The notes beneath the pieces are model-generated. The model saw nothing but the letters and a program-made list of their open reading frames with translations. It had not been told where the DNA came from and made no database searches. A stretch of DNA of 64,000 nt from Rubrobacter aplysinae (lineage in GTDB: Bacteria > Actinomycetota > Rubrobacteria > Rubrobacterales > Rubrobacteraceae): contig NZ_LEKH01000006.1 in NCBI RefSeq assembly GCF_001029505.1, positions 1 through 64,000 on the forward strand, read 5' to 3'. How positions within the stretch are numbered: position 1 is the stretch's first letter; the number at the start of each line of letters is the position of its first letter. Below are positions 6,926 through 27,054 of the stretch, piece after piece. The translations under genes and the position numbers were made by a program.

Positions 6926-8146
6926 CTATTCGGCCTTCTGCCGGGCGCTCTCGACGTCCCCGTGTACCCCGGCCCACTGGCGGGCGGGCAGGCCCCAGAG
7001 CGCGATGAACCCGGCGGCTGCGGACTCGTCGAAGGTGCTGTTGGGGTCGTAGGTGGCGAGGTCCTGGCTGTAGAGCGGCTTCTCTGCGGTGCGCCCGGAG
7101 ACGGTTGCGGAGCCCTTGTACAGCTTCAGGCGCACCGTGCCGGTGGCCGTCTTCTGGGTCTCGTCTATGAAGGCGTCGAGCGCGGCCTTTAGCGGGGTGA
7201 ACCACAGCCCGTCGTAGGTGAGCTCGGCGTAGCGCTGCTCGACCTGGGCCTTGAAGCGCAGCACGTCCTTGGTAAGCGTCATGGACTCCAGCTCGCGGTG
7301 GGCCTGTATCAGGGCGAGGGCGGCGGGGGCCTCGTAGATCTCACGGCTCTTTATCCCGACGAGCCGGTCCTCGATCATGTCTATACGCCCGAACCCGTGC
7401 TCGCCGGCAATTACGTTGAGGGCGGGGATGAGATCCACCAGCGCCATCTCCCGGCCGTCCAGGCTCGTCGGCAGCCCTTTCTCGAAGCCGATCTCGACGT
7501 GGCGCGGCTCGTCGGGCGCATCCTCCGGCTCGGCGGTCATCTCGAACACGTCCGGGGTGGGCTCGTGATCGGGGTCCTCCAGCGGACCGGCTTCTATGGA
7601 GCGGCCAAACAGGTTCTCGTCCACGCTGTAGGGAGACTCTTTGGTCGTCGGCACCGGGATACCGTTCTCGCGGGCAAACTCCATCTCCTCCGGGCGGCTC
7701 ATGCCCCACTCGCGCACCGGTGCGACGACCTTGAGGTCCGGCGCGATAGAAGCGGTGGTAACGTCGAAGCGCACCTGATCGTTGCCCTTGCCGGTCGAGC
7801 CGTGGGCGATATTTTCAGCCCCGACTTCCCGCGCCGCCTCCACGAGCTTCTTGGCGATCAGCGGCCGCCCGAGTGCGGTGAATAGCGGATACCTCCCACC
7901 GTACATCGCGTTCGCCTTTATGGCGGGCGCGACGTACTCGTCGGCGAACTCGGCCCTCGCGTCTCGCACGAAGGCGTCGGCCGCCCCTATATTCAGAGCC
8001 TTCTTCTTTACGTCCACCGCGGGCTCGCCCTGGCCGAGATCCAGATACAGCGCATACGGCTCCGCGCCGCGCTGCTCGAACCACTTCAGACACACCGAAG
8101 TGTCCAGCCCGCCCGAGTAGGCGAGCACTACCTTCTCTCCCTGCAA
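6926..8146 (-). CDS. argG: Argininosuccinate synthase
   Basis: Joins citrulline and aspartate with ATP, the penultimate step of arginine synthesis. The 406 residues begin with the PP-loop A-Y-S-G-G-L-D-T-S and include G-S-T-G-K-G-N-D-Q-V-R-F and R-E-W-G-M-S-R-P-E-E-M. The start is TTG at 8146, six bases after CTGGAGGT. It is the last gene of the leftward argC-argR-argG unit, 46 bp from argR. The gap contains an ATACTA-A-TAGTAT palindrome (8164-8176) of unknown role. argH is not in the window. Confidence 0.97.
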   Translation of the reverse strand: MQGEKVVLAYSGGLDTSVCLKWFEQRGAEPYALYLDLGQGEPAVDVKKKALNIGAADAFVRDARAEFADEYVAPAIKANAMYGGRYPLFTALGRPLIAKKLVEAAREVGAENIAHGSTGKGNDQVRFDVTTASIAPDLKVVAPVREWGMSRPEEMEFARENGIPVPTTKESPYSVDENLFGRSIEAGPLEDPDHEPTPDVFEMTAEPEDAPDEPRHVEIGFEKGLPTSLDGREMALVDLIPALNVIAGEHGFGRIDMIEDRLVGIKSREIYEAPAALALIQAHRELESMTLTKDVLRFKAQVEQRYAELTYDGLWFTPLKAALDAFIDETQKTATGTVRLKLYKGSATVSGRTAEKPLYSQDLATYDPNSTFDESAAAGFIALWGLPARQWAGVHGDVESARQKAE

Positions 8147-8192
8147 GTCTCTACCTCCAGATATACTAATAGTATCTAGCTAAGGTTCAGGG

Positions 8193-8651
8193 TTAATCTA
8201 TGTTTCCGGCGGGCCGGGTCTTTGCCCGGCACACGTCGGTGAGGAGGCTGGTGACCTCCTCGGCGGCGGCGCTATCGGGAGCGGCGGCCATAACGGTGTC
8301 GAGGCCGGCTATGGTGCCGACTATCCTGAGGCCCCGGACGCGGTCGAGGACGTTTGCCACTGCTCCGGCGGTGCCGTCGCGGGTGTGGATGACGACCGTG
8401 TGCTGCGCCGGGGTGACGCGCAGGATAAAGCTCGGGAGCACCTCTATGCCGGCCATGCCGGGCTCGTGTGGCAGGGCGAGATAGCGGCTGCCGACCTTGA
8501 GGACGCCGAGCTCGGCCAGGTCGCGGCTTACGGTGGCCTGGGCGACCTCCACCCCGGCCTCCCCGAGAGCCTCGGCGACGTCCTGCTGCGTGCCGAGCTC
8601 TTTCTCCGAGATCAGGCGCAGTATAAGATCCTGGCGGGTGGTCTTGTCCAT
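8193..8651 (-). CDS. argR: Arginine repressor
   Basis: Hexameric arginine-responsive regulator. The N-terminal winged helix (MDKTTRQDLILRLISEKELGTQQDVAEAL...ATVSRDLAELG) carries the family S-R-D recognition motif. The C-terminal domain ends in a V-M-A-A-A-P-D-S region like the arginine-binding part. The ATG at 8651 aligns with the usual ArgR/AhrC N-terminus and has GAGG upstream. A TTG at 8672 also has a good GGGAGG site and would add seven residues. The gene sits between argC and argG, so it is probably autoregulated with its targets. Confidence 0.94.
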   Translation of the reverse strand: MDKTTRQDLILRLISEKELGTQQDVAEALGEAGVEVAQATVSRDLAELGVLKVGSRYLALPHEPGMAGIEVLPSFILRVTPAQHTVVIHTRDGTAGAVANVLDRVRGLRIVGTIAGLDTVMAAAPDSAAAEEVTSLLTDVCRAKTRPAGNID

Positions 8652-8725
8652 GTTGGACCTCGTGGCTCCCAAGCGTTCCTCCCTCTACGATTCTCTTTTA
8701 TATCGTTTTTATACTGCCTCGACCT

Positions 8726-9745
8726 CTACTTCAGGTGCTCTAGCCCGAGCTCCTCGGGGTGACCGAGCGCGAGGTTCATGTTCTGCACGGCGGCCCCGGA
8801 GGCCCCCTTGAGCAGGTTATCTATGGCGGAGAAGAGTATTAGCTTGCCCGCCGTCTCGTCCACCGCCGCGGAAAGCCTCACGCGGTTGGTGCCCGTAACG
8901 TGGGCTATCTGCGGGTACTCCTCGCGGGCCTCGACGAAGGACCAGCCCGAGTAGTCGTCGGCGTACCACCCCAGGGCCTCCTCGGCGGTCGGGAGATCCA
9001 GAGGGTCCTCGGGCTCGACCGTGATCGTCTCCAGTATGCCCCGGCTTACGGGCACCAGGTGCGGCACGAAGGTGACGTCCGGCGTCTCCCCCACCCGGTC
9101 GAGCACGTTCTGTATCTCGGGCGCGTGGCGGTGGCGCGGGAAGCCGTAGGCGGAGACGTTCTCGTTTGCGCTCACGTAGTGGGTCTTTCCGGACGGCCGG
9201 GCCCCGGCCCCGCTCACCCCCGAGAGCGCGTTCACCGTTACCGACCGCACCCGCCCGTCCAGCCTCTTTACGACCGGCGCGAGCGCGAGCGTCGCGGCCG
9301 TCGGGTAGCAGCCGGGGTTTGCTATTAGCCGCGTGTTCTCCGGCGTGCCGAAGAGTTCCGGCAGGCCGTAGTGCGCCTCCTGTATAAGCCCCGGCTCGGG
9401 GTGCTCACCGTACCACTCGGCGTACAATGCGCCCGGCAGCCGGAAGTCGGCGGAGAGGTCCACGACCAGCCCGGCTCCGGCGTCCAGCAGCCGGGCTACG
9501 GTCTCGGCGCTCTCGCCGTGCGAGTACGCGACGAAAGCCACGTCGAGCCCGGCGGCCTCGACCTCCTCCGGCGCGACGAACTCCCCCTCCGCCGAAAGCT
9601 GCGGAAAGACGCCGCTTATCTTCTGCCCCGCGTTACCCCGCGAGGCGACCTCCAGGGAACCCACCTCCGGGTGCACCGAGAGCAGCCGTATAAGCTCGAT
9701 CCCACCGTACCCGCTGCCGCCGTAGATGCCGACCTTCAAACCCAT
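8726..9745 (-). CDS. argC: N-acetyl-gamma-glutamyl-phosphate reductase
   Basis: NADPH-dependent reduction of N-acetylglutamyl phosphate. The 339 residues start at ATG 9745 (MGLKVGIYGGSGYGGIELIRLL) with the Rossmann G-x-S-G-Y-x-G motif, the catalytic Cys in I-A-N-P-G-C-Y-P-T-A and H-R-H-x-P-E-I. A longer frame runs upstream, but that part lies over the ARG-box promoter and has no family similarity. The ribosome site is weak. It is first in the leftward unit, divergent from argJ. Confidence 0.96.
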   Translation of the reverse strand: MGLKVGIYGGSGYGGIELIRLLSVHPEVGSLEVASRGNAGQKISGVFPQLSAEGEFVAPEEVEAAGLDVAFVAYSHGESAETVARLLDAGAGLVVDLSADFRLPGALYAEWYGEHPEPGLIQEAHYGLPELFGTPENTRLIANPGCYPTAATLALAPVVKRLDGRVRSVTVNALSGVSGAGARPSGKTHYVSANENVSAYGFPRHRHAPEIQNVLDRVGETPDVTFVPHLVPVSRGILETITVEPEDPLDLPTAEEALGWYADDYSGWSFVEAREEYPQIAHVTGTNRVRLSAAVDETAGKLILFSAIDNLLKGASGAAVQNMNLALGHPEELGLEHLK

Positions 9746-9767
9746 GCCCGCAATTACAACACCCCCG

Positions 9768-9779
9768 GAATAATTATTC
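9768..9779. promoter_or_regulatory. ARG box 1 (ArgR operator)
   Basis: The perfect palindrome GAATAATTATTC lies 22 bp upstream of the argC start. It matches the core of ArgR/AhrC operators and probably controls argC and the divergent argJ. Confidence 0.75.
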
Positions 9780-9840
9780 AAGTTTTTGCATAAACCCCGT
9801 TGAACTTCCCGGAGCCGGGTGCGACAATCCCGCTGGCTTA

Positions 9841-9854
9841 TGAATAAAGATTCA
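9841..9854. promoter_or_regulatory. ARG box 2 (ArgR operator)
   Basis: TGAATAAAGATTCA is a near-palindromic second ARG box, centred 74 bp from box 1 and 22 bp before the chosen argJ start. Two boxes about seven helical turns apart fit cooperative ArgR binding or looping across the divergent promoter. Confidence 0.7.
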
Positions 9855-9875
9855 ACATTTCGCATAGAGCCGCCG

Positions 9876-11075
9876 ATGGAGGAGGCTCCGGGCGGGGCGA
9901 CGGCGCCGGAGGGGTTCGCGGCGTGCGGCATCGTCTGCGGCGTGCGGGGCGAGGGGGGCCGGGATCTCGGCCTGCTCTACTCGGAGTCGCCGTGCGTGTC
10001 GGTGGGGGTGTATACGCGCAACGCCTTCGAGGGTGCGCCGCTTGCGGTAACGCGGGAGGCGGTAGAGGCCGGTGCGGTGCGGGCCGTCGTCGCGAACAGC
10101 GGCAACGCCAACGCCGCGACCGGAGCGCCGGGCGTGGAGGATGCGCGGGCCATGCAGGAGTCGGCGGCCCGGGCGCTGGGGCTCGGCGCGCGGGAGGTCG
10201 CGGTGGCTTCGACCGGGGTTATCGGGGAGCGGCTGCCGATTGAGCGTATACGGGAGAGCATCCCCGAGGTGGCCGGAGGGTTGAGCCGGGACGGGTCGTC
10301 GTTCGCCGAGGCCATACTTACCACGGACACGCGCACGAAAGAGGCCGCGGTTCGGGTGCCGCTCGGCGGCGGGTACGTTACCGTCGGCGGGACGGCGAAG
10401 GGGAGCGGCATGATCCACCCGAACATGGGCACCATGCTCGCCTTCCTGACCACCGACGCGGCGGTGGACCGCGACTGTCTGCAAGAGACTCTCGCCCGGA
10501 CGGTGGACTTCTCGTTCAACCGCGTCACCGTGGACGGCGACACCTCACCGTCTGACATGGCGCTCCTGCTGGCGAACGGCGCGGCGGGCAACGAGCCGCT
10601 AAACGCCGACTCGTCCGAGTACCCGGCGTTCGTCGAGGCGGTAGAGGCGGTAACGAAACGGCTGGCGCGGGAGATCGCGCGCGACGGCGAGGGTGCCACG
10701 AAGCTGGTAGAGGCGACGGTCGAGGGGGCGCGGGATGAGGAGCAGGCCGCCGCGCTCGCGAAGGCGGTGGTCGGCAGCAGTCTGGTCAAGGCCGCCGTCG
10801 CCGGGGAGGACGCCAACTGGGGCCGGGTGCTGGTCGCCCTGGGGTACTCCGGCGCGGAGTTCGACCCGGCGGGGCTCACGCTGTACTTCGGCGGCGTGAA
10901 GGTCTTCGAGGCCGGTGAGCCCGTCGCCCACGACGAGAAGGCGGCGAACCGGGCGCTCGCCGGGGACGAGGTCGAGATCCGGGCGGTCGTCGGGAGTCGC
11001 GGGGCGTCGGCGACGGCGTGGGGCTGTGATCTCACCTACGAGTACGTCAGGATCAACGGGAGCTACAGGACTTGA
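9876..11075 (+). CDS. argJ: Bifunctional glutamate N-acetyltransferase / amino-acid acetyltransferase
   Basis: Recycles the acetyl group from N-acetylornithine to glutamate. The self-cleaving precursor motif is visible: KGSGMIHPNMGTMLAFLTT, where the Thr before M-L is the N-terminal nucleophile of the beta chain. N-A-N-A-A-T-G and the terminal S-Y-R-T also fit. An ATG at 9840 would overlap ARG box 2 and has no ribosome site, so ATG 9876 (MEEAPGGATAPEGF) is preferred, but it too has only a weak site. It is first gene of argJBDF and overlaps argB by 4 bp. Confidence 0.95.
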   Translation: MEEAPGGATAPEGFAACGIVCGVRGEGGRDLGLLYSESPCVSVGVYTRNAFEGAPLAVTREAVEAGAVRAVVANSGNANAATGAPGVEDARAMQESAARALGLGAREVAVASTGVIGERLPIERIRESIPEVAGGLSRDGSSFAEAILTTDTRTKEAAVRVPLGGGYVTVGGTAKGSGMIHPNMGTMLAFLTTDAAVDRDCLQETLARTVDFSFNRVTVDGDTSPSDMALLLANGAAGNEPLNADSSEYPAFVEAVEAVTKRLAREIARDGEGATKLVEATVEGARDEEQAAALAKAVVGSSLVKAAVAGEDANWGRVLVALGYSGAEFDPAGLTLYFGGVKVFEAGEPVAHDEKAANRALAGDEVEIRAVVGSRGASATAWGCDLTYEYVRINGSYRT

Positions 11076-11842
11076 GCGAGCCGGGAAAAACTCTGGACCC
11101 GGTAGTGGTAAAGGTCGGCGGCGGAGCTCTGGAGGGCGGCGCCCTGGAGGACGTGCGCGATCTGGCCGCCGGCGGGAGGCCCGTGGTGCTGGTCCACGGC
11201 GGCGGCAACCGGCTAACGCAGATGCTCGAAGCCCTGGGCGTCGAGAGCCACTTCGTCGAGGGGCTGCGCGTCACCGACGAGGCCGCGCTGGAGGTCGCGG
11301 AGATGGTCTACGCCGGGCACGTGAACAAGACGCTCGGGCGCGGGCTAAACTCTTTGGGCATCCCGGCGGTCGGCATCTCGGGGACGGACGGCCCGACCTT
11401 GCGCGTCTCCCCTGTTCCGGGGCTAGGACGGGTCGGAAAGGTACAGAAGGTGGAGGGAGCCCTGATCCAGACCCTCCTGAACGGCGGGTTCGTGCCGACC
11501 GTCGCCCCCCTGGGTCTGGGCCCGGAGGGCGCGTACAACGTGAACGCGGACTCGGCCGCCGCCGCCCTGGCGGTCGCGCTCGGAGCGGGGCATCTGTTCC
11601 TCCTGACGGACGTGGACGGGCTGCTGGCGGACGGAGAGCTGGTCTCCTCGCTCACCCCGGAGGAGTGCGAGGGGTACGTCGAGAGCGGGCTGGCCGCCGG
11701 CGGCATGGTGCCGAAGCTGCGCACGGCCTCCGAGGCGGCGCAGGGCGGGGTCGAGGCCCGGATAGTGAACGGAGAGCGACGAGGCGTGCTGCTCGACGCC
11801 CTCTCCGGCGAGAAGGCCGGGACGTTGGTATCCGGGAGGTAG
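11072..11842 (+). CDS. argB: Acetylglutamate kinase
   Basis: ATP-dependent phosphorylation of N-acetylglutamate. The 256 residues contain V-V-V-K-V-G-G-G, V-L-V-H-G-G-G, the G-L-R-V-T-D motif, N-V-N-A-D-S-A-A and L-T-D-V-D-G-L. The TTG start is inside TTGA, overlapping the argJ stop, which implies translational coupling. The protein is short and lacks the extra N-terminal helix that confers arginine feedback inhibition in longer homologues. It may therefore be insensitive to arginine, which is inference. Confidence 0.95.
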   Translation: MSEPGKTLDPVVVKVGGGALEGGALEDVRDLAAGGRPVVLVHGGGNRLTQMLEALGVESHFVEGLRVTDEAALEVAEMVYAGHVNKTLGRGLNSLGIPAVGISGTDGPTLRVSPVPGLGRVGKVQKVEGALIQTLLNGGFVPTVAPLGLGPEGAYNVNADSAAAALAVALGAGHLFLLTDVDGLLADGELVSSLTPEECEGYVESGLAAGGMVPKLRTASEAAQGGVEARIVNGERRGVLLDALSGEKAGTLVSGR

Positions 11843-16980: not shown

Positions 16981-17981
16981 TCTACTGGCGATTCTAAAGT
17001 TTAGAAAGCTGCCTCTATGCCGAGTTCGTGAGTCGCCAGTATCAGGACGCAGATGTTATGACAGAGGACCTTGGCTAGAACCTCGTTGACCTGAGCCGTA
17101 TCGCTCTTACCTTTTACCGAGGCTCCGAACTTGCGCTTTATCATGCTGAACGTGGATTCGACGTTGCTCCGGCGGTGGTAGTGATCCATGAAGCCTTCTC
17201 TGTTGAACATGAAGTAGTGGTACATCTTCGCCCACGTCGAATCGTCTTCGGGAACCACGGTATTTGACTTGAAGGGGATGAACGGCGTAGCTCCGAAGCC
17301 GTTCACGAGATCCATGTTCTGCTTGCCGAGGTAGGCTTTGTCTGCCGAGACTTCCCGAAGCTGGAAATTTTCGGCGGTCTGCTTTACCAGCGGCTTGAAG
17401 AAGTAGGAGTCGTGGTGTGTCCAGCCCGAAATATCCATCCCGGTAACTATGTTGGTCCGAACGCCGCAGATAAGGTGAGCCTTGAACCACTCCCGACCCT
17501 GATCCTTCTTTCCGTACTTCTTCTCGTGCCAGCGGGCAAAAGTGCTGGTGGAGAATCCCGAAGCGTCTACGGCGAAATCAGTCTCTACAGACTTCAAAGG
17601 CAAGCTACTCAGAGACACTAGTTCTTTCAGCACGTTAGTGAGGGCGGGATCTGCAAGATACCGATTTACAGAGTTGAAGTGGGCGGCTTTGTCAATTAAA
17701 CCGTCAGCGTAAGCCTCTTGCAGATCAGAGGTAAAACGCCTTGCCGAGAAACCGACATAAACCTTGTAGACGCTAGCAAACACCATATCCGCAAGCGGAA
17801 GTCGCGGTCTACCCTTAGTCTGCTCGGGCTGCTCAATGCCACTACAGAGATCGGCAAGTAGCTCTGTGAAACGCACCTTTTCCTCTACTTGAGCGGCGTT
17901 GTAGGCGGTCCAAGAGCGGGATTTGCTTCCCTCTATCATGCAGTAATTATACTTGACCGCTCAAGCATATACACCAGTAGA
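16981..17981. mobile_element. Nested insertion sequence with DDE transposase
   Basis: TCTACTGGCG at 16981 and its inverted counterpart TCTACTGGTG ending at 17981 bracket the transposase with about 20 and 40 bp to spare. Flanking GGAT and ATCC may extend the inverted repeats imperfectly. No target duplication is evident. Alternatively the transposase is the native one of the 4.6-kb element and the short repeat is chance. Confidence 0.5.
17001..17939 (-). CDS. DDE transposase (IS4/IS5-like fold)
   Basis: The 312-residue RNase-H-type transposase starts at ATG 17939. The catalytic triad is placeable as Asp in V-E-T-D-F-A-V-D-A-S-G-F, Asp in V-S-A-D-K-A-Y-L-G and Glu in Y-H-R-R-S-N-V-E-S-T-F-S-M-I-K-R-K-F-G. 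The N-terminal region (about 1-110) is the DNA-binding part. The frame is intact, so it may be active. It is oriented against the element's other left-hand genes. It might mobilise either the nested IS or the whole element; relatives of the IS903 group give 9-bp duplications like the one outside. Confidence 0.9.
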   Translation of the reverse strand: MIEGSKSRSWTAYNAAQVEEKVRFTELLADLCSGIEQPEQTKGRPRLPLADMVFASVYKVYVGFSARRFTSDLQEAYADGLIDKAAHFNSVNRYLADPALTNVLKELVSLSSLPLKSVETDFAVDASGFSTSTFARWHEKKYGKKDQGREWFKAHLICGVRTNIVTGMDISGWTHHDSYFFKPLVKQTAENFQLREVSADKAYLGKQNMDLVNGFGATPFIPFKSNTVVPEDDSTWAKMYHYFMFNREGFMDHYHRRSNVESTFSMIKRKFGASVKGKSDTAQVNEVLAKVLCHNICVLILATHELGIEAAF

Positions 17982-20691: not shown

Positions 20692-21582
20692 CTAGACCGG
20701 TTTCGTGGCCGAGATGCCGTACATCAGCGGCACGCGCGGCGCATTCTCGGGTGGGACCATGCGGCGCCCGGGCAGCTCGCGCATGCCATGGAACTGGCGC
20801 TCGCCGTTTGCGTACGGGTACTCCTGGAGGGTTTGCAGGATCATGCCGGAGCCGGCCAGGGCGGTGACGACATCGCCGAGGCCCCAGCGGAAGAGATGGC
20901 ACGGCTCCGGGTTCTCGAAGTGCCGCACGCCCGGCTCGTGTCCTGCCGGGGTCAGGCCGCCGTCCGAGTCTCCGACGTAGTCTCCGACCCCTTCATCGGC
21001 TTCGAGAGGCTCGCCGCCGGAGTAGTAGTCGTTGGCCAGCCGCCAGTCGGCGTCGAGCATCATCGCCGCCGGGTGGAAGTCCACCAGCGCGAAGCGTCCA
21101 CCGGGGGCGAGCCTGCGGTGGAGGCCCGCAGCCCAGCGATCGAGGCCGGAGAGCCAGCATATGACGCCGTATGAGGCGTAGACGAGGTCGAAGTCCGGCT
21201 CTCCCGTTCGTTCGAGCCAGTCGTAGAGGTCCGAGCGCACGAAGTCGGCCAGTATGCCGGTCTCCTCGGAGAGGCGTCTCGCACTCTGCACGGCCTGTTC
21301 GCTGATGTCCACCCCGGTTGTCTCAGCCCCGAGCCGGGCCAGGCTCAGGGTGTCGCCGCCGGTGTTGCACATGAGGTGGGCCAGGCGCTTTCCGGCCACG
21401 CTTTCGGCCCCGCCGAGCAGGCTCAGGTCCTCCGGGAACAGGGTGGATCCTCCCCGCCGCAGGAATCCCGCGAGGTCTCCGCGATGGCTCTCGTGCGCCG
21501 GGACCACCGCCTCCCAGGAGCGGCGGTTCTGCTCCCGAAGCTCCCGGAGCTCCCGGAGCCTCCGGCCGTCGTCCGCGCTCAA
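20692..21582 (-). CDS. Class I SAM-dependent methyltransferase (last gene of a pterin-type operon)
   Basis: The 296-residue protein has SAM motif I in L-M-C-N-T-G-G-D-T-L-S-L-A-R-L-G, motif II V-D-I-S-E, the post-I acidic region Y-D-W-L-E-R and a downstream D-L-V-Y-A-S-Y-G-V-I-C-W strand. The N-terminus (LRELRELREQNRRSWEAVVPAHE) resembles small-molecule methyltransferases. It overlaps the glycosyltransferase by 4 bp and closes the six-gene operon. The substrate is unknown; context suggests methylation of a pterin or its sugar. Confidence 0.85.
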   Translation of the reverse strand: MSADDGRRLRELRELREQNRRSWEAVVPAHESHRGDLAGFLRRGGSTLFPEDLSLLGGAESVAGKRLAHLMCNTGGDTLSLARLGAETTGVDISEQAVQSARRLSEETGILADFVRSDLYDWLERTGEPDFDLVYASYGVICWLSGLDRWAAGLHRRLAPGGRFALVDFHPAAMMLDADWRLANDYYSGGEPLEADEGVGDYVGDSDGGLTPAGHEPGVRHFENPEPCHLFRWGLGDVVTALAGSGMILQTLQEYPYANGERQFHGMRELPGRRMVPPENAPRVPLMYGISATKPV

Positions 21583-22646
21583 CTCCGCGGCCTCTCCGCC
21601 ACGGCGGCCTCCAGGGCGGCCAGGAAGCCGTCTACCGTATCATCCCATGCGGGTAGCTCCGCGGACCGGCGATGGGCATTCTCCGAGAGTCTCCGGCGCA
21701 GGGATGGGGTCGTGATCAGGTCCAGAAGCCTTTCCGCGAGCCCGGCCTCGTCTCCGGGCTCGACGAGCAGGGCGGCGTCGCCGACCACCTCGGGCACGGG
21801 CCCGGCGGCCGGGGCGATCACGGGCAGGCCGTACGAGAGCGCCTCCGCGTAGACCATGCCGTAGCCCTCGTAGAGCGAGGGCAGCGCAAAGACCGAGGCC
21901 CCGGAGTAGGCACGGCGCAGCTCATCCTCCCCGACCGGACCGCGCACGACTATGTCCTCCGAGCCGGATACGGCCTCGCGCACCCGGGCGGCGTACGCTG
22001 GGTCGGCGGCGGTCTCGCCTACGAGCTCGAGGATCGCCCCGTGACCGGGGGGCAGCGAGCGCCAGGCCCGCACGAGGCCGAGTACGTTCTTGCGTGGGAT
22101 CCACTGCGCCACACATAGGACGCGCAGCACCCGCAGCGGAGACTCTCCGGGTCCATCGGCCCCATCCGGCGCGGCATCGCCGGTGGGCCGCTCAAGGCCG
22201 GGCGGGACGACGTGGATGCGCTCCGGGGAAACGTGACGCTCCCGGAGTATCGAGAGGCCGTGGCGGCTGACGCAGACCACGCGGTCGGCGCGCAACAGCG
22301 GCTCCTCCAGGGGACGCTCCGCCTCCCCGGAGCCCGCGACGCCAGCGGAGCTCGGTAGCTCGTGTACCATAGCCACCACGGGCGTTGTCTCGCGCCAGCG
22401 ATCCAGGTGGGCGGCGCACACGACGCGGGCGAGGGCGTCGACCGAGATCACGTCGAACTCTTGCGGCGCGAGCCGTTCTCCGAGGGAGTGAGAGGCGGCA
22501 CGCTGCTCCCCCACCCCCTCGGCGGAGGCCACGATCTCCTCCACCTCGACGCCGCGCCCGCGCAGCCCGGATAGCAGCCGGGCGTTGTAGCGGTGGCCGC
22601 CGGCCTTGCGGGTGGTGTCGCCGACGGTAACGAAGGCGAGGCGCAT
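21579..22646 (-). CDS. GT4-family glycosyltransferase
   Basis: The 355-residue GT-B enzyme has the N-terminal G-D-T-T-R-K-A-G-G-H-R-Y-N motif, V-V-P-P-G-L-E, the nucleotide-sugar strand V-L-C-V-A-Q-W-I-P-R-K-N and the E-x7-E motif (P-S-L-Y-E-G-Y-G-M-V-Y-A-E-A-L). No membrane segment, so it acts in the cytosol. It sits 5 bp after the PTPS-like gene. Pterin glycosyltransferases occur in cyanobacteria and green sulfur bacteria, so a glycosylated pterin is the context-based guess. Confidence 0.88.
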   Translation of the reverse strand: MRLAFVTVGDTTRKAGGHRYNARLLSGLRGRGVEVEEIVASAEGVGEQRAASHSLGERLAPQEFDVISVDALARVVCAAHLDRWRETTPVVAMVHELPSSAGVAGSGEAERPLEEPLLRADRVVCVSRHGLSILRERHVSPERIHVVPPGLERPTGDAAPDGADGPGESPLRVLRVLCVAQWIPRKNVLGLVRAWRSLPPGHGAILELVGETAADPAYAARVREAVSGSEDIVVRGPVGEDELRRAYSGASVFALPSLYEGYGMVYAEALSYGLPVIAPAAGPVPEVVGDAALLVEPGDEAGLAERLLDLITTPSLRRRLSENAHRRSAELPAWDDTVDGFLAALEAAVAERPRS

Positions 22647-22651
22647 GTGAG

Positions 22652-23026
22652 CTAGATCTCATCCTCGCGGGCGGCGTACACCTGCCCGGACTCCCAGACG
22701 CGGACGATAAGCGACGAGAGGCCGTTCCCGGAAAGGTCCGGCGTGAGCCGCTCCCAGCAGTAGTCCGCGACCCTCTCGGCGGTGGTGTTCCCCTCCGAGA
22801 GACCTTCGACCTCGTCCAGGTCGCGCATGTGCAGCCCGGAGGCCAGCCCTTCCACCGCCTCGCGCAACAGGCCGACGTCGTAGAGGGTGCCGTCGGCGGC
22901 GAGACGTTCGCCCTGCACGAGGGCCTCCAGCCGGTAGGTGTGACCGTGCAGCCGCGAGGCCGGGCCGAAGTCTCCCCGCAGCCGGTGCGCCGCCTCGAAC
23001 TGCGAGGCCACGTAGATCTCGTACAT
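22652..23026 (-). CDS. 6-pyruvoyltetrahydropterin synthase / QueD-like protein lacking the usual Cys
   Basis: The 124 residues match the T-fold PTPS/QueD family. Zinc ligands are His14 (F-E-A-A-H-R), His27 and His29 (R-L-H-G-H-T-Y), with a C-terminal catalytic-type E near V-R-V-W-E. In QueD the motif is C-x3-H-G-H; here the Cys position is Ala23, so the ordinary queuosine-precursor or PTPS reaction is doubtful. Length is normal. It lies between the MazG-like and glycosyltransferase genes with tiny gaps. Confidence 0.85.
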   Translation of the reverse strand: MYEIYVASQFEAAHRLRGDFGPASRLHGHTYRLEALVQGERLAADGTLYDVGLLREAVEGLASGLHMRDLDEVEGLSEGNTTAERVADYCWERLTPDLSGNGLSSLIVRVWESGQVYAAREDEI

Positions 23027-23041
23027 ACTCCTCCTCTGAGG

Positions 23042-23488
23042 CTAGTCTTCCGTCGCGCTGGTTTTGCCGCTCCTCTGGCGGGAGATCTCGGCCCGCATAT
23101 CCGCGGGCTTCCAGCCGGGCGGCTTCATCTGCTTGCCGTCCTCCCGGCGCGGCCCCTGTACCTTGTGCATGTTGGCGCGGTGCAACTCGCGGAACACGCC
23201 GTCCGGGTCCACCCCACAGGCCAGTAGCGTACCGTAGGTGACGTAGAGCAGGTCGGCCAGCTCGTGTACCAGGTGCGCCAGCGCCCGCTCCCCGGACTCC
23301 CCGCTCTCCTCCGGCTCCGGCTGGCCGGATTGCAGCCGGGAGAGAGCCTCCAGGACCTCTTCGTACTCCTCCGAGATCAGACGTTCCCGCAACCTCAATA
23401 CCTCATCCCGGGGTACGGACGGCGCGGCGGGGTCCACCGTGCCCGAGGCCCGGTGAAACTCGCTCACGAGCCCCGCGTTGCTAGGCAA
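23042..23488 (-). CDS. MazG-like / PRA-PH-type nucleotide pyrophosphohydrolase
   Basis: The 148-residue all-alpha protein has the paired acidic motifs L-I-S-E-E-Y-E-E-V-L-E-A-L and H-E-L-A-D-L-L-Y-V-T-Y-G-T that bind Mg and pyrophosphate. The tail (QMKPPGWKPADM) is typical of single-domain MazG-like proteins. In this operon a plausible task is removing pyrophosphate from a pterin triphosphate, but nucleotide house-cleaning is equally possible. It starts 22 bp after the dehydrogenase stop. Confidence 0.85.
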   Translation of the reverse strand: MPSNAGLVSEFHRASGTVDPAAPSVPRDEVLRLRERLISEEYEEVLEALSRLQSGQPEPEESGESGERALAHLVHELADLLYVTYGTLLACGVDPDGVFRELHRANMHKVQGPRREDGKQMKPPGWKPADMRAEISRQRSGKTSATED

Positions 23489-23509
23489 GACTGCTCCTTA
23501 TCATTCCCC

Positions 23510-24553
23510 TCACTGCTCCCCCTCGTAGGTCAACAGGACCTGGGCAAGACCGGCAGGGCGGTCCTCTATGAGACGGTACGCGTCCGGGGCACGCTCGAAC
23601 GGCACCCGGTGCGAGACGAGCGCCCCCAGTCGCAAGCGCGGGTCTTCGAGAAACTCGACCACGGTTCTGGTACGCCGGGCGTGGTCCCAGCGGGGAGAGA
23701 GCGCGGGGTTCAGCATCCCCACCTGCGACGAGCGCAGCGTGACCCGGCCCCGGTGGAAGTTCTGCCCGAGGGAGAGGTCTACCGGCTTCGTACCGTACCA
23801 GGAGGCGACGACCACGGTACCCTCCACCGCGACCGCCTCGACGGCATCCTGCAGCGCCTCCCCCGCCCCGCTGGCCTCGACGGCCACGTCCGCCCCGCGT
23901 CCGCCGGTGGCCGCCAGCACCTCCTCGACCAGCCCCTCACCCGGCGTGAGCGCCCCGTCCGCGCCGAGGGCGAGCGCCAGCCTGCGCCGGCTCTCAAGCG
24001 GGTCCACCGTAAGCACCGCCCCCGCGCCGGCGAGCCTCAGTAGCTGGGCCACGAGCAGCCCGACCACGCCCTGCCCGAACACCAGCGCCGTCTCGCCGAG
24101 CTTTAGCGGCGAGTCGTGGACGATGTTCACCGCCGTCTCCAGGTTAGCGGCGAAAACCCCGATCGAAGGGTCTATGCCGGTCGGCAGCGGCACCACGTAC
24201 GAGGCGGGCACGGTAAGCCGGCTCTGGTGCGGATGATGGACGAAGACCGGGTCCCCGACAGCCATGCCCTCAACCTTCTCGCCAAGCTCCTCGATACGCC
24301 CGGAGAGGGCATAGCCGTACTTTATCGGGAAGCCGAAGCTACCCTCCAGGGTCGGGAGATCCAAAGCCGCATCCGCGGGAGCCTCGCCCCGGTATACGAG
24401 CATCTCCGTGCCGCCGCTCGGCGCGGAGGCCGCCGCCCGCACCCGGACCTCCGCCTCCCCGGGCGCGGGCACCGTCTCGTTACGCAACTCCGCCCTCCGG
24501 GGTGCCGTAAACCACAATGACCGGGCCTCCACCGCCTCTACCGCCTCAGACAC
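23510..24553 (-). CDS. Zinc-type alcohol dehydrogenase-like oxidoreductase
   Basis: MDR-family protein. GTG 24553 is preferred over the 33-residue Arg-rich upstream extension; it overlaps the RibD-like gene by 8 bp. The N-terminal GroES-like domain includes G-Y-A-L-S-G-R-I-E-E-L-G and V-G-D-P-V-F-V-H-H-P-H. The Rossmann motif G-Q-G-V-V-G-L-L-V-A-Q and an acid-ended strand (V-D-P) follow. Structural-zinc Cys residues are absent. It may reduce or oxidise a side-chain carbonyl of the pathway intermediate. Confidence 0.85.
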   Translation of the reverse strand: MSEAVEAVEARSLWFTAPRRAELRNETVPAPGEAEVRVRAAASAPSGGTEMLVYRGEAPADAALDLPTLEGSFGFPIKYGYALSGRIEELGEKVEGMAVGDPVFVHHPHQSRLTVPASYVVPLPTGIDPSIGVFAANLETAVNIVHDSPLKLGETALVFGQGVVGLLVAQLLRLAGAGAVLTVDPLESRRRLALALGADGALTPGEGLVEEVLAATGGRGADVAVEASGAGEALQDAVEAVAVEGTVVVASWYGTKPVDLSLGQNFHRGRVTLRSSQVGMLNPALSPRWDHARRTRTVVEFLEDPRLRLGALVSHRVPFERAPDAYRLIEDRPAGLAQVLLTYEGEQ

Positions 24554-25361
24554 CCCGGGCGTCCTCCCGGCTCGCGTCGCGGGGACCGTTCTCGTGGCCG
24601 CCGGGCCCCGTCTCCGGGTACACGAGACGGCCGTCCAGGAGGAGATCCACACCGCACCGCGTGACCGCGACGTCGGCGAGCTCCAGAGAATGGTCGAGGC
24701 TGCGGACGCCCAGCTCCCCGACGGCCTCGATGCCGGAGCCCAGGATCTTTGGCGCCACGCACACCACCAGCCGGTCGGCCAGCCGCTCGGCGAGGAGGCA
24801 GGTGATGATCTCGGCCCCGCCCTCGACCATCACCGAGCCCACGCCCCGGCGGCCGAGCTCCGCCAGAAGCGCCGACAGCTCGATGCGCCCGGAGCGATCC
24901 TCCGCGACCTCGACGACCTCCGCCCCGAGATCCCGCACCCGCCTCCGGCGCTCCTCCGGGGCCTTTCCGGTAACGGCGAGCAGCGTGCCGGGGGCAGCCT
25001 CCCCGGAGAGCACGGCGGCGTCTGGCGGGATGCGGAGGCCGCTATCCACCACCACCCGCAGGGGGTCGGCGCCGGCGGCGTGCCGCACGGTAAGCTTCGG
25101 GTCGTCGCGGCAGGCCGTCCCGGCCCCGACGAGTATGGCGTCGTGGGCCGCCCGCAGCTCGTGGGTAAAACGGAGCGACTCACCGGCGCTGATCCACTGC
25201 GAGCTCCCCCCGGCGGTCGCGAGCCGTCCGTCGAGCGTCTGCGCGTAGCTCACCGTAACCCGCGGCCGGAATGGCCAGGGCTTATGGGACTGCGGGCTCA
25301 GCTCCTCCCGCACGCCCCCGGGATCCTCTTCTCTAAATCCTCTAAACTCTTCCCAACTCAA
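24546..25361 (-). CDS. RibD C-terminal-domain (DHFR-like) reductase
   Basis: The 271 residues carry V-T-V-S-Y-A-Q-T-L-D-G-R-L-A-T, R-A-A-H-D-A-I-L-V-G-A-G-T-A-C-R-D-D-P-K-L-T-V-R and V-M-V-E-G-G-A-E-I, the NADPH-dependent reductase signature of RibD/RIB7. No deaminase domain is attached, so it is a stand-alone reductase of a pyrimidine or pterin. The start is TTG 25361 or, after a GAGGAT site, GTG 25313. It is the first gene of the leftward six-gene operon; folB diverges from the same 150-bp promoter region. Confidence 0.88.
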   Translation of the reverse strand: MSWEEFRGFREEDPGGVREELSPQSHKPWPFRPRVTVSYAQTLDGRLATAGGSSQWISAGESLRFTHELRAAHDAILVGAGTACRDDPKLTVRHAAGADPLRVVVDSGLRIPPDAAVLSGEAAPGTLLAVTGKAPEERRRRVRDLGAEVVEVAEDRSGRIELSALLAELGRRGVGSVMVEGGAEIITCLLAERLADRLVVCVAPKILGSGIEAVGELGVRSLDHSLELADVAVTRCGVDLLLDGRLVYPETGPGGHENGPRDASREDARGV

Positions 25362-25514: not shown

Positions 25515-25883
25515 ATGGACGACGATCGGATTCTTCTCGAAGGCATGGTGTTCCACGGCTACCACGGCACCCTGGACGCCGAGCGCGAGCTGGGCCAGCG
25601 CTTCGTGGTGGACCTCGCGCTATACCTGGACCTCGGCCCCGCGGGCCGGTCGGACGACCTCGCGCTCACGGTCGACTACGGCGAGGCCCACCGCCGTGCG
25701 CGGGAGATAGTCGAAGGCGAGCCCGTGGACCTTACCGAGACCGTGGCAGAGCGTATAGCGGCGGCGCTGCTCGCGGACCACCCGACGGTCGGGGCGGTCC
25801 GGGTCAAGGTCGCGAAGCCCCAGGTCAGGCTGAGAGGCACGGTGCTCGCGGGCTCGGCGGTCGAGATACTGCGCCGCCGGTAG
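25515..25883 (+). CDS. folB: Dihydroneopterin aldolase
   Basis: The 122-residue T-fold enzyme of folate synthesis cleaves dihydroneopterin to 6-hydroxymethyl-dihydropterin. It has L-E-G-M-V-F-H-G-Y-H-G, V-D-Y-G-E-A, the substrate-binding E in L-T-E-T-V-A-E-R-I and V-K-V-A-K-P with the catalytic Lys. ATG 25515 gives the normal family length. A longer upstream frame lacks similarity. It is divergent from the pterin-type operon, which strengthens the pterin link. Confidence 0.93.
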   Translation: MDDDRILLEGMVFHGYHGTLDAERELGQRFVVDLALYLDLGPAGRSDDLALTVDYGEAHRRAREIVEGEPVDLTETVAERIAAALLADHPTVGAVRVKVAKPQVRLRGTVLAGSAVEILRRR

Positions 25884-26280: not shown

Positions 26281-27054
26281 TTGTTGCGGTTTCCGGCCGC
26301 GCGTCTGGCCCGGCAGGTAGCATTCTACGACGGCGTCGTGGGCGAAAGTGGTCTCGGGGCTGGCGGCGGGTGGGCCACGGAGCGCCTCTGCCGCGGCCTG
26401 TCCATCCGGGGAGCGGAGGGCATCCCGGAAGAGGGTCCGGTCCTGGTGGTATCCAATCATCCCGGACTCGCGGACTCGCTCTCACTGTTCGTGGCCCTGG
26501 CCCGGAGCGGGCGCGGGGAGGACCTGCGAGTGGTGGTCGAGGAGCGGGAGTTTTTGCGGGCGCTCCCGAACACTTCGCAGTACCTGATCCCGGCAAGCGA
26601 CCCCGGCGGCCGTCCGGCCGGTGTCGGGAGCCTCAGGGCGGCCTCCCGGCACCTGGGCTCCGGCGGCGCGTTGCTGGTCTTCCCCAAGGGCCGCATAGAG
26701 CCGGACCCGGCGAGCATGCCGGGGGCGGAGGACTCACTCGGAGACTGGGGCCCGAGCCTGGACCTGTTTGCCAGGCTGGCGCCGGAGGCGCCGGTGATCC
26801 CCGCCATCGTGAGCGGTGTGATCTCACCGGCGGCGCTGGCGAGCCCCGTAACCCGGCTCCGCCGCCGCCCGGAAGATAGCCGCTGGCTCGCCGCCTCGCT
26901 GCAGATGCTCGTGCCGGCCCTCCGTGACGTACACACCGAAGTCAGCTTCGGTCGCCCCGTATACAGGGGTAACGACAAGAGCGTGGCCGGGGTACGCGAG
27001 GAAATCCTGAGCCAGGCGCGGCGGATGATCCGGTCGGCCAGAGCGTCCTGCTAA
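26281..27054 (+). CDS. PlsC-like phospholipid/glycerolipid acyltransferase
   Basis: The acyltransferase motifs N-H-P-G-L-A-D (NHx4D) and F-P-K-G-R (FPEG equivalent) are clear, with P-V-I-P-A-I-V later. The first canonical start is TTG 26281 with no ribosome site. The same frame is open and protein-like far upstream (from about 26050; it includes E-T-L-T-R-V-C-A-D-D-L-T-E-A-L-G-L-Y) without ATG, GTG or TTG. The gene may therefore start at a rare codon such as ATT, or its 5' end may be lost. It probably acylates a lipid at the inner membrane face. Confidence 0.8.
   Translation: MLRFPAARLARQVAFYDGVVGESGLGAGGGWATERLCRGLSIRGAEGIPEEGPVLVVSNHPGLADSLSLFVALARSGRGEDLRVVVEEREFLRALPNTSQYLIPASDPGGRPAGVGSLRAASRHLGSGGALLVFPKGRIEPDPASMPGAEDSLGDWGPSLDLFARLAPEAPVIPAIVSGVISPAALASPVTRLRRRPEDSRWLAASLQMLVPALRDVHTEVSFGRPVYRGNDKSVAGVREEILSQARRMIRSARASC

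Follow-up and report, generated by a model that had tools for sequence, protein, structure and literature searches.

PTPS-IV proteins carry the signature FGPAQ, and their genes were reported in 2017 to have GTP cyclohydrolase II (GCHII) and RibD_C genes as neighbors (cluster-node 62; PMC5445326). A link between PTPS-IV and F420 synthesis was mentioned as unpublished data in 2016 (PMC5041015). Beyond these two reports, the literature searched contained neither a characterized product nor a named cluster. Related known systems also include the archaeal riboflavin route ArfA-ArfB-ArfC (GTP cyclohydrolase III [GCHIII], formamidase, and DARPP reductase), the pterin glycoside systems of cyanobacteria and Chlorobi (BGluT, PDB 5ZER), and SCO6650 (PDB 3D7J) and SCO6655. 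The last of these, a GCHII homolog of Streptomyces coelicolor, was reportedly found by Spoonamore et al. in 2006 to make a formylated pyrimidine (FAPy), an output said to be due to a Met at a switch position. We know of no metabolite, assay, or mutant for any member of the PTPS-IV cluster.

The window, a stretch of 64,000 nucleotides from Rubrobacter aplysinae (genome size, 3.19 Mb), contains six contiguous, codirectional open reading frames (ORFs) on the minus strand, running from 25361 to 20692. In order, these encode a RibD C-terminal-type reductase that lacks a deaminase domain and is ArfC/DARPP-reductase-like (24546 to 25361; Pfam RibD_C, 2.1e-50), a distantly BchC-like medium-chain dehydrogenase without catalytic zinc ligands or a structural zinc lobe (23510 to 24553; ADH_zinc_N, 4e-22), a DR2231-type, MazG-like NTP pyrophosphohydrolase (23042 to 23488; PRA-PH, 1.4e-17), a PTPS-IV-type T-fold protein (22652 to 23026; PTPS, 2e-27), a GT4 glycosyltransferase (21579 to 22646; Glycos_transf_1, 2.7e-24), and a class I S-adenosylmethionine (SAM)-dependent methyltransferase (20692 to 21582; Methyltransf_12, 2.4e-13). 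On the plus strand lie a divergent FolB dihydroneopterin aldolase (about 25515 to 25883; FolB, 1.3e-33) and a PlsC-like acyltransferase (26281 to 27054; Acyltransferase, 2.7e-6). The junctions between the six ORFs measure -8, +21, +15, +5, and -4 bp, respectively. Thus, the six-gene operon claimed in an earlier note on this DNA, with overlaps or gaps of at most 22 bp and a divergent folB, is borne out: all ORFs exist, and Pfam backs every family name. The dehydrogenase most likely starts at the GTG at 24553, giving an 8-bp overlap with the end of the RibD gene, and the program-called start at 24652 makes the ORF too long. The methyltransferase starts with TTG and shares 4 bp with GT4. By eye, a minus-strand ORF at 17001 to 17939, some 2.8 kb past the operon on its downstream side, looks transposase-like.

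Judged by its motifs and nearest relatives, the window PTPS is of the PTPS-IV type. It reads FGPASRLHGH, the Q of the published signature being S or T here, and FGPA followed by R-[LMTVP]-HG is present in every row of both alignments. The motifs of QueD and PTPS-I (CxxxHGH with an Asp/His pair), PTPS-II (CxxxxxHGH), and PTPS-III (ExxHGH) are absent from the window protein, and its score against the NCBIfam QueD model (55) falls below the cutoff of 89. A role in queuosine synthesis was rejected on these grounds. A tree of PTPS proteins separates QueD from a group made up of Rubrobacter-type and classic PTPS-IV proteins (support, 96/81); the placement of the very long Haloarcula row is unsure. 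The nearest solved fold to the AlphaFold (AF2) model of the window PTPS (pLDDT, 96.6) is SCO6650 (3D7J; TM, 0.93), which also came first in a single-sequence search with the window protein.

The alignment of 97 PTPS proteins was read using the residues that we take to be catalytic or binding in QueD. The catalytic Cys is Ala in 96/97 proteins and Glu in the Haloarcula protein; it is Ala in 29/29 Rubrobacter-type proteins, in which the catalytic His is Tyr, Phe, or Met. The Asp/His pair is gone in nearly all 97, with a minority keeping the Asp. The pterin-anchoring Glu, in contrast, is kept in 97/97. Rubrobacter/Chloroflexota-type proteins keep all three zinc histidines (HGH), whereas in the classic type the third is Ala (HGA), and the chemistry of the classic proteins may differ. 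The name that such proteins receive in automatic annotation, 6-carboxytetrahydropterin synthase, is contradicted by the active site.

A search with the PTPS protein retrieved orthologs of 62 to 74% identity in 22/35 family relatives, a patchy presence that suggests that the operon is accessory, and regions were fetched around 20 orthologs of family relatives. When 84,980 species genomes were scanned using the PTPS alignment, relatives of the PTPS-like protein numbered at least 571, of which 80 loci were kept; seven repeats of the same genomes were removed. Because loci were picked on the PTPS protein alone, the neighboring genes provide an unbiased test. In Rubrobacteraceae-type loci (n = 23), RibD, dehydrogenase, PTPS, and GT4 genes were each found in 23/23, FolB in 22/23, and PlsC in 21/23. 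The methyltransferase was found in 19/23 by BLAST and HMM (the L049 methyltransferase is among these 19), with a twentieth found by DNA match; three of the four loci missing it are short or cut contigs. In well-flanked classic PTPS-IV loci (n = 47), the dehydrogenase (n = 46), GT4 (n = 46), methyltransferase (n = 41), and RibD (n = 37) were also found. The commonest order, dehydrogenase-PTPS-GT-methyltransferase, is kept across phyla, Methylosinus (L144) included. As a control, ten further PTPS-family loci were inspected. Eight, of the QueD type, had no operon neighbor; the other two did have such neighbors, and their PTPS best matched Streptomyces PTPS-IV. The recurrence of the five families and the empty QueD-type controls show clustering far beyond chance.

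Taken together, the RibD reductase, dehydrogenase, PTPS, GT4, and methyltransferase form a conserved five-gene unit that recurs in order in Rubrobacteraceae, is also found in Chloroflexota, and is rearranged in other phyla. The cluster is common to hundreds of bacteria and some archaea, with annotated examples in Streptomyces, Thiodictyon, Methylosinus, and Haloarcula; Streptomyces sp. NBC_00019 has a solitary PTPS-IV gene with no cluster around it. The earlier note had proposed that absence of co-occurrence in other genomes would count against its pathway; the families do co-occur. It had also known of no described pathway with this gene combination. No characterized pathway was found in the literature searched, but PTPS-IV beside GCHII and RibD_C has been published (PMC5445326). 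The cluster has thus been partly described before, and the operon is a variant branch of a described, uncharacterized cluster. It shares with cluster-node 62 and SCO6650 the FGPA-type PTPS without the catalytic Cys and the RibD_C adjacency, to which many lineages add GCHII. It differs in keeping HGH, in placing GCHII outside the operon, and in having FolB and PlsC in place of the CDP-alcohol transferase, flippase-like, and creatininase genes of the classic cluster.

The MazG-like gene lies outside the conserved unit; the claim of a six-gene unit therefore holds for five families. MazG is absent from 36/36 other genomes searched (present in 1/37 overall) and was found in 0/22 other Rubrobacteraceae-type loci (1/23 in all), an absence most likely explained by recent insertion. 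At 23042 to 23488 it sits between two operon genes and leaves the operon unbroken. Its best solved relative is DR2231 of Deinococcus radiodurans (1.5e-37), which is exclusively active on dUTP according to a passage of PMC10014863 that cites Mota et al. (2016). Unlike DR2231, the window protein is encoded within an operon, and a dUTP activity for it is putative. The likeliest explanation is that MazG has an unrelated house-cleaning role and was inserted into this genome, and it is probably outside the pathway; it was accordingly dropped as a pathway enzyme, and with it the earlier proposal that it trims a pterin triphosphate.

In the scheme of the earlier note, PTPS acts on dihydroneopterin triphosphate made by FolE, MazG trims, RibD reduces the pterin, and GT4 and the methyltransferase decorate it. 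FolE is present in the genome, the adjacent FolB is conserved, and the weak GT matches include a tetrahydrobiopterin glucosyltransferase, all in keeping with that scheme. The restriction of MazG to this genome among the 37 searched, its resemblance to a dUTP hydrolase, the loss of the known PTPS catalytic Cys, Asp, and His, and the cyclohydrolases of clusters elsewhere argue against it, and we consider it unlikely. Clusters in other lineages carry GCHII (16/47 well-flanked classic loci) or GCHIII, and a search seeded with a single FolE sequence found no FolE within PTPS-IV loci. A riboflavin-type pyrimidine is thus the natural starting point, and the evidence points to this precursor rather than dihydroneopterin triphosphate. 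In Haloarcula (L031, 4172 to 4954), the cluster contains an archaeal GTP cyclohydrolase III (PF05165), an apparent nonhomologous replacement of GCHII. GCHII is not part of the window operon and was found near the operon only in L037, L056, and L062; the window genome has one RibBA.

The Streptomyces clusters hold a GCHII with the SCO6655-type Met, which fits a single cluster containing both SCO6650 and SCO6655. Among the loci examined, however, this Met was found only in three from Streptomyces, while the GCHII of other clusters and the window RibBA have Tyr. Most lineages therefore probably make the deformylated product directly. FAPy was rejected as the general first intermediate for this reason, and creatininase (16/47 classic loci) as a FAPy deformylase likewise offers no general explanation.

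The operon reductase appears to be of the DARPP reductase (ArfC/RibD_C) type, given its fold without a deaminase and its similarity to solved DARPP reductases, which are its best matches (6P8C, the top one, 1.2e-33; 2AZN, 1.2e-30). Against NCBIfam, it scores above the cutoff for TIGR00227 and below that for TIGR01508. Elsewhere in the genome are one full-length RibD and, as a third copy of the domain, another RibD_C protein (G000:C10:24005-24628, outside the window). The likeness to the archaeal riboflavin route extends to the GCHIII of the Haloarcula cluster; in contrast to that route, the PTPS-IV cluster lacks lumazine and riboflavin synthases, with PTPS-IV, dehydrogenase, GT4, and methyltransferase following instead. 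The dehydrogenase, termed zinc type in the earlier note, has lost the ligands that the term implies: the catalytic zinc Cys is Ser and the His is Tyr in 89/89 proteins, and the structural zinc lobe is gapped in the same 89/89. Its score against the BchC model TIGR01202 (73 bits) is below the cutoff of 291 bits.

We interpret the operon, with a probability of about 0.5, as the Rubrobacteraceae/Chloroflexota branch of the PTPS-IV cluster, making a modified pteridine via riboflavin-type opening of GTP. Behind this reading stand the observed gene content and its conservation, the lost catalytic residues, the pterin-anchoring Glu that is retained, and the riboflavin-type cyclohydrolases of sister clusters. 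The substrates, order of steps, ring closure, and product that we infer would be as follows. RibBA here, or GCHII/GCHIII in other clusters, would open GTP to 2,5-diamino-6-ribosylaminopyrimidinone phosphate, and RibD_C would convert the ribosyl group into a ribityl chain by reduction. A hydroxyl of that chain, most simply at C2', would then be oxidized by the zinc-free dehydrogenase, and within the PTPS-IV pocket the ketone could react with the 5-amino group and close the ring to a dihydropterin, a step proposed on chemical reasoning only. GT4 would glycosylate this dihydropterin before methylation by the methyltransferase. The N-C1'-C2' atoms of the ribitylaminopyrimidine would correspond to N8-C7-C6 of the pterin, such that oxidation at C2' and attack of the 5-amino nitrogen would lead to 7,8-dihydroneopterin phosphate. 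GTP cyclohydrolase I builds the same skeleton by an Amadori rearrangement. PTPS-IV, as a T-fold protein that has the pterin pocket but no residues for a retro-aldol reaction, fits a role in binding or in closing the ring.

It is conceivable, if rather doubtful, that the RibD_C, dehydrogenase, and catalytically rewired T-fold proteins divide among themselves (C1' reduction, C2' oxidation, and ring closure, respectively) a conversion that GTP cyclohydrolase I carries out in a single step, constituting a second GTP-to-dihydropterin route that feeds a glycosylated, methylated, perhaps lipid-linked pterin across phyla. If true, this would represent a second way from GTP to the pterin ring as well as a widespread natural product or cofactor. 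FolE is present in 12/12 PTPS-IV genomes tested from other clades and in 34/37 genomes in and around the family (one copy in the window genome), so an ordinary dihydroneopterin supply is possible and a second route would not be needed. By the same counts, replacement of FolE or folate synthesis by the pathway was rejected. The compact set of five core genes and the complete zinc sites make the Rubrobacter/Chloroflexota branch well suited to in vitro work.

A sugar-bearing, methylated pteridine is probably the product of the cluster. The glycosylated, methylated pterin of the earlier note is still the most economical product, while its MazG trimming and its use of PTPS on dihydroneopterin triphosphate are not retained. 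By similarity, GT4 and the methyltransferase appear generic. The solved structure nearest to GT4 is an inositol-phosphate glycosyltransferase (1.7e-19), with a weak match to the tetrahydrobiopterin (BH4) glucosyltransferase (1.3e-6); no pterin glycosyltransferase was its closest relative among solved structures, and the methyltransferase matched only generic methyltransferases in the same comparison. Like the pterin glycoside systems, the operon has a GT4-type enzyme beside pterin-type genes. Compared with BGluT (5ZER), however, its glycosyltransferase is nearer to the inositol-phosphate enzyme, and its PTPS lacks the biopterin-type catalytic residues.

Several points count against our preferred reading. 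GT4 and the methyltransferase are generic, the ordinary FolE route could supply dihydroneopterin, and classic PTPS-IV, short of one zinc histidine, may differ in chemistry from the Rubrobacter type. The scheme also gives no role to three gene families found in classic clusters: creatininase, CDP-alcohol transferase, and the flippase-like protein. The latter two would be accounted for by a membrane-anchored or exported conjugate, in which a CDP-alcohol phosphatidyltransferase joins the pterin or pyrimidine head to a lipid and a flippase-like protein moves the product, with PlsC perhaps a parallel in Rubrobacteraceae. Genes for CDP-OH_P_transf (35/47), LPG_synthase_TM (23/47), and sulfatase-type membrane proteins (11/47) in well-flanked classic loci are consistent with such a conjugate, as is PlsC near 21/23 Rubrobacteraceae loci and the Oscillochloris operon. 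No such membrane gene is present inside the Rubrobacter operon, though, PlsC is divergent and could have its own function, and CDP-alcohol enzymes can also yield soluble phosphodiesters; we therefore regard the conjugate as a tentative and rather unlikely proposal, and the involvement of PlsC as uncertain. In L028 (11578 to 12792), an LPG_synthase_TM flippase-like protein is encoded right after the methyltransferase, with a similar arrangement in 21 other loci, a hint that the product of classic clusters may be a lipid or be exported.

PTPS-IV in F420 synthesis agrees with the published remark (PMC5041015) and with CofH in Rubrobacteraceae, the window genome included, and in most Actinomycetes tested. 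Yet 8/15 PTPS-IV genomes lack CofH above the family cutoff, which led us to reject F420 as a general product, and Variovorax, Oscillochloris, and Sorangium have no CofH match at all. GT4 and the methyltransferase, to our knowledge, have no place in F420 synthesis, and we consider this role highly improbable.

FolB acts on dihydroneopterin. Because it is single copy in the window genome, it could have a plain folate role. Indeed, RibD_C, FolB, and GCHII are all vitamin-pathway families, as expected if this were an accessory folate/riboflavin housekeeping cluster without a special product, with GT4 and the methyltransferase as bystanders. That is very unlikely, as RibBA, full-length RibD, and FolE are present elsewhere in the genome, dehydrogenase-PTPS-GT-methyltransferase is the best-conserved part, and the distribution within the family is patchy, unlike that of housekeeping genes. 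In the operon-less relatives examined, FolB adjoins neither PlsC nor operon genes, and operon-less genus g3 has a distant FolB version. In keeping with our preferred pteridine reading, a FolB relative (7914 to 8309) lies inside the operon in Oscillochloris (L062), which is ordered methyltransferase-FolB-RibD-dehydrogenase-PTPS-GT (7056 to 11601). PlsC, an MFS-type transporter, and GCHII are encoded a few kilobases away, mirroring the surroundings in Rubrobacteraceae.
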